Source: an uncultured Bacteroidota bacterium
GTDB taxonomy: Bacteria; Bacteroidota; Bacteroidia; Chitinophagales; Chitinophagaceae
NCBI GenBank assembly: GCA_903848125.1
Contig: CAINFN010000046.1
Coordinates: forward strand, 1 to 33,593
Direction of reading: 5' to 3'
Length of the DNA stretch: 33,593 nucleotides
Positions within the stretch are counted from its first letter, which is position 1; the number at the start of each line of letters is the position of its first letter. The notes under the pieces are model-generated. The model had not been told where the DNA came from and searched no databases. It saw nothing but the letters and a program-made list of their open reading frames with translations. A program made the position numbers and the translations under genes. Below are positions 3,579-30,253 of this stretch, piece by piece.

Positions 3579-4832
3579 ATGAAGCTTCATTTACAAAAAA
3601 TTAGTATACTCCTTTTTGTCATTCTTTCTTTTAAAGGGTATGCCCAGGATAGTACTCTAGTAAAAAGCCCCCTACATAAAAAAAATATATTCACCCTTGG
3701 TTTATACAAACAACCAGGTATAGATTCCATGGTAGATTTTGTAGATGGAATTTATCGCGTCTTAAATATAACTAAACCTAGGGGGATGGATCAAAAGCTA
3801 AACAAGTATCATCTTGCTTTTGTTCCTGGTGTGGAATATAGCTTAGCTACTGGGTTTGCTACTTCAATTAATGCCGATATTATTTTGCCCTATAAAAACC
3901 CAAAAGACAATCAATCTATTATATTTTCGGAATTAAAATATACCCAAAACAAACAAATTATTTCTCAGCTGGCTTCTAATCTTTGGCTCAATAACAATCA
4001 ATACAATATCACCACCAACTGGTCTTATTTAAAATATCCTCAAATTGATTTTGGATTAGGTTCAAATAGTACTCTTAATTTACTTGATAGTATAGATTAT
4101 TCTTATTTGAAATTACATCAATCTTTTTTGAAAAGAATTGCACCTAATTTATATTTTGGCCCCGGCTTAAACATAGACTACTACTGGAATATAGTAGACA
4201 CTACTAAAAAAAATAAACCTGTAGTTGGTTTTAATGAGTATGGGTTTACAAAACATTCCAATTCGGTAGGGTTGCTATTAAATCTTTTATATGATACCAG
4301 AAAATCATTGGTGAATCCTGTTGCCAATAGTAGTTTTTTAAATATTATTTATAGAGATAACTTAACTTTTTTAGGAACGGATGCCCCTTCGCAAACTTTA
4401 TTATTTGATTATAGAATGTATTTACCTTTCCTAAAAGGAAGTAAAAATATTTTAGCTTTTTGGTCTTACAATATTTTCACACTTGCAGGCAAACAAGCCT
4501 ATTTAGACTTACCTGCTACTGCATCAGATACCTATGGTAATTTTGGTAGAGGGTATATTCAAGGAAGATTTAGGGGAGATAAATTGATGTATGCAGAATC
4601 GGAATATCGTTTTGGCATTACAGAAAATGGTTTTTTAGGCGGGGTAGTTTTTGCCAATATGCAAAGCTTGTCGGAGCGCCAAGGGAAACCTATACAATCT
4701 TTATTGCCTGGGTACGGAGCGGGTATCCGAATTAAATTAAATAAACACTCCAATACTAATATAGCCATTGACTATGGGATGGGTCAAGGGGGTTCCAAAG
4801 GAATTTTTATGAACTTGGGTGAAGTGTTTTAA
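3579..4832 (+). CDS. BamA/TamA-family (Omp85 C-terminal-like) outer membrane beta-barrel protein
   Basis: Signal peptide MKLHLQKISILLFVILSFKGYAQ; alternating beta-barrel pattern; C-terminal GYGAGIRIKLNKHSNTNIAIDYGMGQGGSKGIFMNLGEVF ends in F. Confidence 0.75.
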   Translation: MKLHLQKISILLFVILSFKGYAQDSTLVKSPLHKKNIFTLGLYKQPGIDSMVDFVDGIYRVLNITKPRGMDQKLNKYHLAFVPGVEYSLATGFATSINADIILPYKNPKDNQSIIFSELKYTQNKQIISQLASNLWLNNNQYNITTNWSYLKYPQIDFGLGSNSTLNLLDSIDYSYLKLHQSFLKRIAPNLYFGPGLNIDYYWNIVDTTKKNKPVVGFNEYGFTKHSNSVGLLLNLLYDTRKSLVNPVANSSFLNIIYRDNLTFLGTDAPSQTLLFDYRMYLPFLKGSKNILAFWSYNIFTLAGKQAYLDLPATASDTYGNFGRGYIQGRFRGDKLMYAESEYRFGITENGFLGGVVFANMQSLSERQGKPIQSLLPGYGAGIRIKLNKHSNTNIAIDYGMGQGGSKGIFMNLGEVF

Positions 4833-25103: not shown

Positions 25104-25162
25104 TAACAATTCGGTAACATACCCATAACAATTCGGTAACATACCCATAACAATTTGGTAAC
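25104..25162 (+). repeat. Tandem repeat: 22-bp unit (TAACAATTCGGTAACATACCCA) x about 2.7, built on an 11-bp TAAC period
   Basis: TAAC at 25104, 25115, 25126, 25137, 25148 and 25159, exactly 11 bp apart; further TAACAATTC at 25177-25185. Confidence 0.95.
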
Positions 25163-25194
25163 TTGAATTAAGCCTTTAACAATTCATTATGCGT

Positions 25195-25202
25195 TTCTTT
25201 TG
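25195..25202 (+). promoter_or_regulatory. Candidate -7 element (TTCTTTTG) of the TonB receptor promoter
   Basis: One mismatch to TAnnTTTG, 20 nt downstream of the start of TTTAACAATTC and 21 nt before the ATG at 25223. Confidence 0.4.
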
Positions 25203-25222: not shown

Positions 25223-28200
25223 ATGAAAAAGGTTTTATCAACTATTATCATAGGGTTAAGTTTTATTGGCGTTTTTGCACAAGAAACATCTTCAACTTTA
25301 GGCGGACGTGTAATCAATGAAAAAAATGAGATTGTTGCAGGAGCAACTATCAAGTTAACCCACGTACCCACTGGTGCAACGGTAATTTTTCAATCTAATT
25401 CGAAAGGTTTATTTGTAGCGCCTAACTTAAAACCAGGCGGACCTTACTCTATTAAAATCAGCTCTGTTGGTTTTAAAGATCAAGATTACAATGATGTTAC
25501 TTTAACACTTGGTGTAAATCCAGATGTTAATATTATTTTATCATCTAAAGTGAATCAATTAACTGATGTAGTTGTAAACAGTACCAGTAGTCGTAAAAAA
25601 GTAGAGGGCGGAACTGTTATTGGTTCAAGACAATTAAATGCATTACCTACATTAGGAAGAAGCTTAAGTGATTTTACAAGATTAACACCACAGTCAAATA
25701 ATAATTCATTTGCTGGAAGTAGTTTCCGTTATAACAATTTAACTATTGATGGTGCTATTAATAACGATGCATTTGGATTTAGTAACTCAGCCGGTGGTAC
25801 AAGTGGTGGTGGTCAATCTGGAGCAGCAGGTTCTGGAACAAGAACGAATCCATATAGCTTGGATGTGATACAAGAAGTACAAGTGCAATTAGCACCTTAT
25901 GATGTTAAATTCGGAAATTTTACAGGTGGTAGCGTAAATGCGGTAACTAAAAGTGGAACCAATGATTTCCATGGTAGTGTTTATAGTTATGGTCGTGATC
26001 AAAACTTAATGGGTAAAAGTGTTGATGGATTAAAGTCAAGCATTGGAAATATGTTTCATGATAATCAACAAGGTGCAACGATAAGCGGGCCAATCATTAA
26101 AAACAAAGCTTTTTTTATTATTAATTTTGAAACAACAGATCGTCAAGAGCCTACTTCTTATAATATTGGTGATCCGGGTGCTGCCATTACAGCAACTGAA
26201 GCACAACAAATAGTAGATAAACTTCAAACCAAGTATGGTTATAATCCAGGAAGTTATATGGGTGCTTATGCCATTTTCACTAAAAGTGATAAATTATTTG
26301 GCCGTTTAGATTTTAATTTGAATCCAAAAAATACTTTAACCTTACGTGCTATTTATACAAATGGTCGTGGTAATAACTTAGAGCGTTCTTCAACCAACTT
26401 TCAATTTGGATCAACTGATTTTACTCAATATACTAAAAACGTAAACTTAACAGTAGAACTTAAATCAAAATTGAGTAACGATGTAAGTAATCAGTTCAAT
26501 GCTAGTTATATCAATGTGCATGAATACAGAGATTTCCCAGGTGTATTGGCGCCGTATATGGATATAGATAACGGTAGAATTACATTAGGTACTTGGAGAG
26601 AAGCGTCAATTTACAACTTGAAACAATCTACTTTTGAATTGAGTGATAATATGACTATTACTAAAGGAATTCATAAAATTACTTTAGGAACGCACAATGA
26701 ATTTTATAATTTAAATTATGGATTCATCAATTCGTTCAATGGTCGTATAGAATATTCAAGAGGTTTAAATAGTTTCTTAGCAGATAATCCAAGTCGTATT
26801 CGTGGAGCATATATGACTGATCCAACCATGACTGGAACGAGAGAGTCTATTTATAATAATCCTCCTAATCCTTTTTCTGTAGCTTTAACTAGTGCTTATT
26901 TTCAAGATGAGATTACTGTAAATAATAAATTTAAATTAAGCCCAGGGGTAAGATTTGATTACTCTTTTGTTGGTAGCCAACCTAAAATTGATGCAGGTTT
27001 AAATTCAACCAACTCAGTTGGATATGTTTCTGCTAATCCAACTTATACGGCAACTCCTTTTAGTCAATTGTCTGATCAAATTCCTTCACGCGTTTCAGTT
27101 TCTCCTCGTATAGGATTTACTTATGATGTGAATGGTGATCAATCAGTGATCATTAGAGGTGGAACAGGAATATTTACTGGTAAAGTACCATTTGCTTGGT
27201 ATGGTTATGCTTATACATTAAGTGGAAATACTTATGGTAATATAGACTGGAATGGTCCAGCTGCTGGAGTAGCAGTACCCTTAGCAATGAACACTGATAA
27301 GTTAAGAGATACCGTAACTAAATACGGAGGTCTTTCAAGAAGTGCTACTAGAGAGGTGGATGTATTTGATAATAACTTTAAATTACCAACTATCTGGAGA
27401 AGTAGTTTAGCGGTGGATTATAAATTTGGTAATGGATATAAATTTACTGGAGATGTGTTATATACTAAAACTATCTATGATGTAAAGTATGAGCAAATTA
27501 ACCTTAAAGATTCTGTTGCTTATTTTACAAGTGGACCAACTCAAACTCCAGTATATGTAGGTGGAAAGTATAATAGTAATTACTCTAACGTGTATTTTTT
27601 AACCAATACAAGCGAAGGGTATCGCTACAACCTTACTGCTCAATTATCTAAATCAACTCCAAATGTTGCTGTAGGTAAATACTTTGCAAACATCAACTGG
27701 AGTGCTGCTTATACATATGGTGTAAGTAAGGACATTACAAACGGTATTCGTAACTCTTGGGAAAGTAGTTATAACGTGAATCCAACCATTGTTCCAAGTA
27801 ATTCTCCATTGGCTTACTCAAACTTTGATTTACGTCATAGAATTGTTGCTACTTTTTCAAGCAACTTTATTTGGAGCAAAATGAATTCTAGTTCTATTGC
27901 ATTTGTTTATTCAGGTGCTTCTGGAAATCCATATAGTTTAATTTATCAATCAGCGCCATTTGGTAATGGTTCTAACGCGCCTTTGCCTGCCATTCCAGCT
28001 GCTGTATCTGAAATCAAATTTGCAGACGTAAAAAATTCAACAGGTGCAGTAACTTATTCTGGATTTGATCAGTTGGTTGACTTCTTTAAGTTTGTTGACA
28101 ATGACCCTTATTTAAAAACAAGAAAAGGTCAATATGCTGAAAGAAATGCAATGCGTACTCCTTGGGTACATGATTTAGATATGAAATTGATGCATGAATT

Positions 28201-28501
28201 TAAATTAAGCAAAACAGATTCTAAGAAAGCTTTACAAATTAGCCTTGATGTATTTAACGTGTTAAACTTACTTAATAACGAATGGGGACATGTTAACTTT
28301 GTTACTAACTTAAACAACTACACTGTTAACTTCTTAAAATTTGTAACGGATGCATCTGGTAAAGCTCCTGGTGCTCCATCAACTGGATACACACCAACAT
28401 TTAACTTTATTAAACCAACTGGAGTTGGAGGGAACTACTATACTTTAGATCCGATTAGCTCTAGATGGCAAGGTCAATTAGGTGTTAAATTGATTTTCTA
28501 A
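25223..28501 (+). CDS. Oar-like TonB-dependent receptor with N-terminal carboxypeptidase regulatory-like domain
   Basis: Signal peptide; TLGGRVINEKNEIVAGATIKLTHVPTGA; plug region NNLTIDGAINNDAFGFSN and EVQVQLAPYDVKFGNFTGGSVNAVTKSGTNDFHGSVY; C-terminal barrel ending RWQGQLGVKLIF. Confidence 0.95.
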   Translation: MKKVLSTIIIGLSFIGVFAQETSSTLGGRVINEKNEIVAGATIKLTHVPTGATVIFQSNSKGLFVAPNLKPGGPYSIKISSVGFKDQDYNDVTLTLGVNPDVNIILSSKVNQLTDVVVNSTSSRKKVEGGTVIGSRQLNALPTLGRSLSDFTRLTPQSNNNSFAGSSFRYNNLTIDGAINNDAFGFSNSAGGTSGGGQSGAAGSGTRTNPYSLDVIQEVQVQLAPYDVKFGNFTGGSVNAVTKSGTNDFHGSVYSYGRDQNLMGKSVDGLKSSIGNMFHDNQQGATISGPIIKNKAFFIINFETTDRQEPTSYNIGDPGAAITATEAQQIVDKLQTKYGYNPGSYMGAYAIFTKSDKLFGRLDFNLNPKNTLTLRAIYTNGRGNNLERSSTNFQFGSTDFTQYTKNVNLTVELKSKLSNDVSNQFNASYINVHEYRDFPGVLAPYMDIDNGRITLGTWREASIYNLKQSTFELSDNMTITKGIHKITLGTHNEFYNLNYGFINSFNGRIEYSRGLNSFLADNPSRIRGAYMTDPTMTGTRESIYNNPPNPFSVALTSAYFQDEITVNNKFKLSPGVRFDYSFVGSQPKIDAGLNSTNSVGYVSANPTYTATPFSQLSDQIPSRVSVSPRIGFTYDVNGDQSVIIRGGTGIFTGKVPFAWYGYAYTLSGNTYGNIDWNGPAAGVAVPLAMNTDKLRDTVTKYGGLSRSATREVDVFDNNFKLPTIWRSSLAVDYKFGNGYKFTGDVLYTKTIYDVKYEQINLKDSVAYFTSGPTQTPVYVGGKYNSNYSNVYFLTNTSEGYRYNLTAQLSKSTPNVAVGKYFANINWSAAYTYGVSKDITNGIRNSWESSYNVNPTIVPSNSPLAYSNFDLRHRIVATFSSNFIWSKMNSSSIAFVYSGASGNPYSLIYQSAPFGNGSNAPLPAIPAAVSEIKFADVKNSTGAVTYSGFDQLVDFFKFVDNDPYLKTRKGQYAERNAMRTPWVHDLDMKLMHEFKLSKTDSKKALQISLDVFNVLNLLNNEWGHVNFVTNLNNYTVNFLKFVTDASGKAPGAPSTGYTPTFNFIKPTGVGGNYYTLDPISSRWQGQLGVKLIF

Positions 28502-28583: not shown

Positions 28584-29000
28584 TTATTTTATATTTTCTT
28601 GAACAAAATTCTCGCAATAATCTTTAATCATTCCTCTTACCACCCTAAACTGCTCATTAATTTCGGCTTCTGTACCAATGGCTTTGGCAGGATCTGGAAA
28701 ATTATAATGTAGCTTAACTGCCTTAGTTGGGAAATAAGGACAACGCTCTTTAGCATTATCACATACGGTAATCACATAATCAAAATCTACCCCAAAATAC
28801 TCGGTGATATTATTAGAAGTATGCTGAGAAATATCAATACCAATTTCTTTCATGGTAGCAATGGCTTTTGGATTCACACCATGTGTCTCCACGCCAGCAG
28901 AATAAACATTGGCTTTACCCGCTGTCATACTTGCTAAAAATCCATGGGCTATTTGACTTCTGCAACTATTGCCTGTACATAATACTAAAATATTTTTCAT
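28584..29000 (-). CDS. arsC: Arsenate reductase, low-molecular-weight phosphatase type
   Basis: LVLCTGNSCRSQIAHGFL (CX5R P-loop); YVITVCDNAKERCPYFP; FPDPAKA. Confidence 0.93.
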   Translation of the reverse strand: MKNILVLCTGNSCRSQIAHGFLASMTAGKANVYSAGVETHGVNPKAIATMKEIGIDISQHTSNNITEYFGVDFDYVITVCDNAKERCPYFPTKAVKLHYNFPDPAKAIGTEAEINEQFRVVRGMIKDYCENFVQENIK

Positions 29001-29080
29001 ACTATTTTTTATTTTTTAAAAGTATTTCTTAAAGATTATTTTAATTCGAATAATTTCTCCTGAGCTTATTATCCAATTTT

Positions 29081-29920
29081 TTAGCAACAACCTGCACCTG
29101 GCACACAGGCGGCTTTTGGTTTTTGTGCAAATACGGTTACTGAAAAGATACCCATTTGAGAAGATTTAAAAGCAGCAATTTCTGCAGGGTTTAAATAATT
29201 CACTAAAATATCATCAGGAATAATAATGGCTTTTTCTTTTTGAATAACTACATTTTCAAAACCATTCGCATCAATCAATTCCAAGTATACTTGTTTTTGA
29301 ATGGCTCCGGACACACAACCTGCATACATTTCTGCAGCATTTCTTAAACCCTCTGGTAAAGCACCTACTAAAACCACATCTGAAATACTAAAGTGACCAC
29401 CTGGTTTTAAAACTCTAAATATATCTTGTATTACCGCATGTTTATTAGGCACTAAGTTTAATACGCAATTACTCACCACCACATCTGCAATATTAGAAGT
29501 GATGGGCATATGCTCAATGTCACCTTGTCTAAATTCAACATTATGGTAACCCATTTTTTCTGCATTGGCTCTGGCTTTTTCAATCATGGCTGGTGTAAAA
29601 TCAATACCAATGACTTTGCCATTAGCCCCTGTGCTTCTTCTAGCTACAAAACAATCATTGCCAGCACCCGATCCTAAATCTACCACTACATCTCCCTCTT
29701 TTATTTTAGCAAACTCGGTAGGTAAGCCACAGCCTAAGCCTAAATCAGCCCCTTCCACATAGCCTGGTAATTGGGTATAATCATCCGACATGATATTGTA
29801 AATTTCGGTACTGCAACCACCTGCCCCACAACAAGAAGACATATTGGTCTCTTTGTCTTGTAAAGCAATCTCACTGTATTTTGCTTTTACGATTTCTTTT
29901 AATTCTAATTCTGTTTTCAT
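29081..29920 (-). CDS. arsM: Arsenite S-adenosylmethyltransferase
   Basis: SSCCGAGGCSTEIYNIMSDDYTQLPGYVEGADLGLGCGLPTEFAKIKEGDVVVDLGSGAGNDCFVA; C-terminal VPGAGCC. Confidence 0.95.
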   Translation of the reverse strand: MKTELELKEIVKAKYSEIALQDKETNMSSCCGAGGCSTEIYNIMSDDYTQLPGYVEGADLGLGCGLPTEFAKIKEGDVVVDLGSGAGNDCFVARRSTGANGKVIGIDFTPAMIEKARANAEKMGYHNVEFRQGDIEHMPITSNIADVVVSNCVLNLVPNKHAVIQDIFRVLKPGGHFSISDVVLVGALPEGLRNAAEMYAGCVSGAIQKQVYLELIDANGFENVVIQKEKAIIIPDDILVNYLNPAEIAAFKSSQMGIFSVTVFAQKPKAACVPGAGCC

Positions 29921-29938
29921 AATTTCAATTTTATATTG

Positions 29939-30253
29939 TTAACAACAAGTTTTTGATTTGTAGGTAGTATTAAATAAGCCATCAAATAATTTTCCAATTT
30001 TTTTCCAATTGGTTTCGTCAATACAATAACAAGTTTTTACACCAGTAATCTCTCCTTGAATTAAACCTGCTTCTTTTAATTCTTTTAAATGTTGCGAAAC
30101 GGTGCTTTGAGAAAGCGGTAGTTCATCTACTAAATCTCCACAAATACAGGTTTGCTTTTTTAGCAACAATCGAATAATGGCTACCCTGGCTGGATGTCCC
30201 ATTGCTTTTGCTAGCAAAGCTATTTGTTCGTCTTTTTCAGTGTAGAGTGCCAT
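29939..30253 (-). CDS. arsR: ArsR/SmtB-family metalloregulatory repressor
   Basis: [44 protein letters not shown]-terminal CC; heads the arsM-arsC operon. Confidence 0.93.

Follow-up and report, generated by a model that had tools for sequence, protein, structure and literature searches.

The gene for an Oar-like outer-membrane receptor in an uncultured member of the Chitinophagaceae is preceded by six TAAC motifs at exact 11-bp steps, and the question that this locus raises is what the array does and to which signal it would couple the receptor. The window, that is, the whole stretch of DNA that was analyzed (33,593 nucleotides), comes from a host genome that is 79% complete, and all the evidence described here is comparative. 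A preliminary description of the sequence attributed the array to a tandem-binding response regulator, possibly a phosphate-responsive one of the Pho type. The PhoP box of B. subtilis is TTAACA-like. A Pho box comprises two or more 11-nt direct repeats, with about seven conserved and four variable positions, located by the core promoter of genes for phosphate scavenging; the repeat core is CTGTCAT in E. coli and GTTCACC in S. coelicolor (PMC4415409).

Organization of the Array and its Promoter

Direct reading of the sequence places the TAAC starts at 25104, 25115, 25126, 25137, 25148, and 25159, which agrees with the preliminary description in positions and in the exact 11-bp step. The array occupies 25104-25162 and its last TAAC starts 40 nt 5' of a -7-like TTTG. 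The features of the locus are as follows, boxes 1 to 6 having been assigned by sequence and phase analysis.

25104..25114, + strand: Pho-type box 1, TAACAATTCGG, at -95 from TTTG
25115..25125, + strand: Pho-type box 2, TAACATACCCA, at -84 from TTTG
25126..25136, + strand: Pho-type box 3, TAACAATTCGG, at -73 from TTTG
25137..25147, + strand: Pho-type box 4, TAACATACCCA, at -62 from TTTG
25148..25158, + strand: Pho-type box 5, TAACAATTTGG, at -51 from TTTG
25159..25169, + strand: Pho-type box 6, TAACTTGAATT, at -40 from TTTG
25170..25191, + strand: degenerate in-phase box positions AAGCCTTTAAC and AATTCATTATG, at -29 and -18 from TTTG
25177..25185, + strand: off-register TAACAATTC, kept in the closest sister species
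25195..25202, + strand: -7-like octamer TTCTTTTG (Bacteroidota consensus TAnnTTTG), its TTTG conserved at fixed phase
25223..28501, + strand: Oar-like outer-membrane receptor, the presumed regulated gene (1092 aa; CarboxypepD_reg PF13620 and OMP_b-brl_4 PF25183)
28584..30253, opposite strand: arsC, arsM, and an ArsR-family gene, directly downstream of the receptor

The longer units had been described as alternating, which holds for boxes 1-4; box 5 departs from the scheme by one change and box 6 retains TAAC only. The additional copy noticed at 25177 (TAACAATTC) is present and out of register, since it lies 18 bp past the last box and not 11 or 22; it may belong to the -33 region of the core promoter. 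The near-consensus -7 element was read correctly, TTCTTTTG lying 5' of the receptor start codon (25223). The phase of the array extends into this promoter: seven further steps of 11 bp from 25104 lead to 25181, and 18 nt beyond that position the TTTG starts (25199). This -18 offset is that of the last TAAC in relatives, and the in-phase positions 25170 and 25181 are degenerate in the window. The statement that all motifs face one side of the helix is approximate, because an 11-bp period drifts slightly against the helical repeat of about 10.5 bp per turn.

Tandem Repeats Finder (TRF) describes the array as a 22-bp unit present 2.7 times with 97% matches (score 111, the top tandem-repeat score in the window), so its regularity is partly the product of a two-box unit having been duplicated in tandem. 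When the 220 bp upstream were dinucleotide-shuffled 20,000 times, the longest run of TAAC at 11-bp steps was three (in three shuffles) and never six. A pattern scan of the host assembly (1.84 Mb, 79% complete) found no second TAAC-N7-TAAC-N7-TAAC. The window has no match in Rfam and thus contains no known RNA element; a sigma-70 scan gave no useful promoter at the receptor gene, as expected for Bacteroidota.

Conservation and Phase Upstream of Receptor Orthologs

Orthologs of the receptor were collected from the genus of the window and from public genome contigs of Chitinophagaceae and other Bacteroidetes; Ferruginibacter paludis and Flavisolibacter nicotianae are two of the sources. TAAC boxes stand directly upstream of nearly all of these receptors. 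Across 39 non-redundant upstream regions, TAAC pairs occur 64 times at 11 bp, 46 times at 22 bp, and 22 times at 33 bp, against a shuffle expectation of about 0.3 at each spacing (maximum of two for 11-bp pairs) and a single 11-bp pair when the initial 220 nt of the receptor genes served as control. In the box consensus, TAAC is followed by A, A/T, and T, and the last four positions are weak.

The boxes are also in phase with the promoter. Measured from TTTG, 77 of 96 TAACs lie at 7 mod 11 (-18, -29, -40, -51, and so on), and these include all six boxes of the window, at 40 to 95 nt. At each of the -29 and -18 positions, which are degenerate in the window, 15 of 27 orthologous promoters have a TAAC box. 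In the closest sister genomes the proximal in-phase positions are degenerate as well, their place being taken by a conserved TAAC at -22; the strong boxes consequently end at -40 in the window and these sisters, farther from the -7 element than in most relatives. Every second interval measures 12 bp in one sister (L065); strict 11-bp spacing thus holds inside box pairs and not everywhere. The preliminary description had staked its reading on the array being present and phased before orthologous receptors, and there it is both conserved and phased. Judged from these promoter sequences, the array is a genuine conserved element across Chitinophagaceae orthologs.

Genes Preceded by the Element

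The distribution of the element was examined in 147 genomes of the window's genus with the stringent pattern TAAC-N7-TAAC-N14-TTTGC and its reversed form as control. This pattern occurs in 101 of the 147 genomes, far above the control, and about once per genome, a figure that depends on the stringency of the pattern. A degenerate two-box version (three mismatches) gave counts only modestly above control in 12 complete genomes of the genus, and a wider regulon is thus not definable by that pattern.

The stringent sites number 109, of which 82 precede one of two kinds of gene: the Oar-like receptor (16 sites) or a TonB receptor of another kind with a lipoprotein after it (66 sites). Ten of the other 27 were opened; five proved to be Oar-like or receptor-lipoprotein genes on broken contigs, and the remaining ones stand before a Porin_O_P gene (one; phosphate-selective porin O/P, PF07396, in L309), a SusC-like receptor (one), and a conserved 104-aa protein (three). 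The latter cases are two-box arrays with TTTGC in three sister genomes, and the conserved protein, of 104-105 aa (L300, at 4426-4737; L301; L302), has no Pfam match. Four-box arrays are found elsewhere in the family as well, ahead of Oar-like receptors, of TonB receptors, of a lipoprotein that stands alone, and of a porin-like gene. The last encodes a 447-aa outer-membrane porin-like protein (L039, 116-1459, - strand) with no significant match in Pfam or NCBIfam. Several other fourfold TAAC matches in the family, for instance those built on TAACTCTCAGA and TAACCCGTATA, were set aside, as they look like simple repeats unrelated to the element; these 11-bp arrays have a different unit and occur several times per genome (e.g., G254, C1:348560-348629; also G338 and G171).

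Association with Phosphate Genes

A position weight matrix trained only on promoters of Oar-type receptors was applied, at a 1% null threshold, to 21 PhoX loci of Chitinophagaceae and 30 phytase loci. Three boxes and TTTG at the exact receptor phase were found directly upstream of phoX at seven of the 21 loci, the PhoX support comprising three genera; the ATG follows TTTG by 23-27 nt at each of the seven sites, and PhoX identity was confirmed with Pfam for the three loci checked. The element did not exceed the null at the other 14 PhoX loci, many of which are other PhoX subtypes. The phytase loci, a negative set, yielded no element (0/30) within 1.5-kb flanks, a span that might not reach the promoter where it lies before an upstream gene of the operon. 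No phoX was detectable in the window's own genome (79% complete).

The lipoprotein-TonB receptor pair is found throughout Bacteroidia. Among 20 fetched regions of 9-16 kb each, it adjoins PhoB- or PhoR-like genes in five (L185, L187, L190, L192, and L197), while several others contain TAAC arrays upstream of the pair's TonB receptor; in one region (L189) the lipoprotein and the TonB receptor adjoin an Oar-like receptor, and arrays are present. The overlap with phosphate genes proposed at the outset as a check was therefore positive in related genera, where it comprises phoX, Porin_O_P, and the pair that neighbors PhoB/PhoR-like genes in other Bacteroidia.

Expression and binding data from two members of the phylum bear on this association. 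In F. johnsoniae, a TonB-dependent transporter (TBDT) and lipoprotein encoded in the phoBR operon (Fjoh_0545/0546) are specific to phosphate depletion, as are a second TBDT/lipoprotein pair (3857/3856) and an orphan PF13620 TBDT (Fjoh_3841); PhoX is likewise among the proteins induced when phosphate is depleted (PMC8115612). In Riemerella anatipestifer, PhoP is an OmpR-family regulator that is upregulated in phosphate starvation and binds the promoter of a TonB receptor, with TTTAACA as the most conserved bases of its DAP-seq motif (PMC9603813).

Candidate Regulator and Interpretation

The host genome encodes, on contig C23, a PhoB-like regulator (best NCBIfam match TIGR02154) and a PhoR-like kinase (best match PnpS/PhoR). 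Both candidates fall below the NCBIfam equivalog cut-offs (207 vs. 296 bits), and the pair resembles its counterpart that adjoins the receptor-lipoprotein genes of L185 (274 and 393 bits). Three OmpR-family DNA-binding domains occur in this genome, one of them cut by a contig end. PhoU (PF01895) was detected in none of 61 genomes of the genus, against 13 of 14 control genomes, so that the signaling input cannot be the textbook Pst-PhoU route and phosphate sensing would have to work without PhoU.

Taken together, the array is very probably a multi-copy Pho-box operator through which a PhoB-like regulator would switch on the Oar-like receptor when phosphate is scarce. The regulator would most likely be the PhoB/PhoR-like pair on contig C23. 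Under phosphate scarcity, PhoB-like dimers would bind head-to-tail on the 11-bp TAACATT repeats and recruit RNA polymerase to a Bacteroidota -7 promoter that has no clear -33 element, and the receptor would thereby be activated. From the associations described, we infer the identity of the binding protein, activation and not repression, phosphate as the signal, and import of a phosphorus-containing ligand by the receptor. The Pho-type control put forward in the preliminary description is well supported by association, because the element is common to phoX, Porin_O_P, and the receptor-lipoprotein pair and because of the F. johnsoniae and Riemerella data.

Direct repeats spaced by about 11 bp characterize the OmpR family as a whole, and the array could be the tandem operator of another member, for example the second response regulator of this genome, of the L150 type, controlling outer-membrane receptors in answer to a non-phosphate signal. 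The three OmpR-family domains of the host leave room for such a protein, arrays also stand before the 104-aa protein of three sister genomes and one SusC-like receptor, and the authors of the R. anatipestifer study liken the PhoP motif to that of ArcA (PMC9603813). This reading is nevertheless unlikely, given that an element of the same phase sits on phoX and Porin_O_P genes and that the array-bearing receptor-lipoprotein pair adjoins PhoB/PhoR-like genes in several families.

Two further readings start from the window itself. That the array is a mere 22-bp tandem duplication (VNTR) with no regulatory role would fit the near-perfect repeat, in which the spacing of later copies is inherited and not independently selected; duplication accounts for the copy number in the window but not for the element, whose position and phase are kept in differing flanks, in many genera, and before non-homologous genes, which makes this reading highly improbable. 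It is just as hard to credit that the array answers arsenate or arsenite. Such a role is suggested by the ars genes that follow the receptor on the opposite strand and by arsenate being a phosphate analog, but operators of the ArsR family are inverted repeats, no ars homolog was found by the receptor at this site in several array-bearing relatives (L288, L290-L292, and L294, among others), and the array is found before phoX too.

Exchange of Receptor Cassettes at the Locus

The two main kinds of array-bearing gene tend to exclude one another within the genus: the Oar-like receptor occurs alone in 27 genomes, the lipoprotein alone in 99, both in two, and neither in 19 (147 genomes; Fisher p = 5e-15, not corrected for kinship). 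Restricting the count to the 95 genomes that are at least 90% complete gives 22, 64, two, and seven, respectively. The possibility that the Oar-like receptor is the pair's receptor under another name was rejected, as the two share only about 31% identity over 133 aa. The domain search found no separate Plug match in the window receptor, and PDB sequence searches with the receptor and with the lipoprotein found no relative.

One species (G036; L286, G036:C18) has the receptor-lipoprotein cassette at the very site where the window and G096 have the Oar-like receptor. One flank, carbonic anhydrase-fucosidase, matches the window at 96% and 84% identity, and the other, arsC-alanine dehydrogenase, at 94% and 93%; no arsM or arsR homolog was found at the site in G036 and G096. 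The tree of the carbonic anhydrase gene requires three state changes, of which well-supported branches force at least two, and rejects a single Oar clade (p-AU 3.5e-6); it is based on a single neighboring gene that may itself have undergone recombination. On at least two occasions, the Oar-like and receptor-lipoprotein cassettes have taken each other's place at this chromosomal site. Each cassette type has its own type of array-bearing promoter, and the idea of a retained promoter with an exchanged receptor was therefore dropped. A tentative proposal is that the strong multi-box Pho regulon of this genus, in which PhoU is not detected, has contracted to what is essentially a single outer-membrane cassette, and that the two non-homologous array-bearing cassettes interchange as an exchangeable phosphorus-uptake surface module.

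Implications and Comparison with Known Pho Systems

From these results a Pho-box-like element can be defined by sequence as TAACAWT repeated at 11-bp steps in register with the TTTG of the -7 element. The definition applies to Chitinophagaceae and, with less certainty, to other Bacteroidia; none like it was found in the literature searched. It would allow Pho regulons to be predicted from sequence, including many uncharacterized outer-membrane receptors and lipoproteins, in a phylum that matters for the turnover of organic phosphorus. For the Oar-like receptor it predicts a role in phosphorus acquisition, and the comparison reveals an exchangeable receptor locus.

The element resembles the Pho boxes of PhoB and PhoP in its 11-nt tandem direct repeats with conserved (TAAC and AWT) and weak (last four) positions, in its fixed place by the core promoter (the last box at TTTG-18 in most relatives, the strong boxes from -40 in the window), and in preceding phosphate-starvation genes of relatives (phoX, Porin_O_P, and the pair by phoBR-like genes). 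It differs from them in its core, TAACAWT, which is set against a Bacteroidota -7 element (TTTG at -18, -29, and -40), in the six strong boxes of the window, and in its occurrence in a genus without detectable PhoU. The PhoP motif of R. anatipestifer comes from the same phylum and its TTTAACA contains TAACA; in contrast to the roughly one site per genome found here, 583 peaks are reported, and the available part of that report describes no 11-bp promoter-phased array (PMC9603813). A further parallel is with the phosphate-starvation TBDT and lipoprotein systems of F. johnsoniae, PUSIII/IV and Fjoh_3841, in a study whose text does not use the term Pho box (PMC8115612). The likeness extends to a CarboxypepD_reg receptor (Fjoh_3841, taken as Oar-like by its Pfam annotation and without alignment), a receptor with a pectin-lyase-like lipoprotein, a PhoBR neighbor, and PhoX, whereas the genus of the window relies on one or the other of its two cassettes, Oar-like or receptor-lipoprotein.
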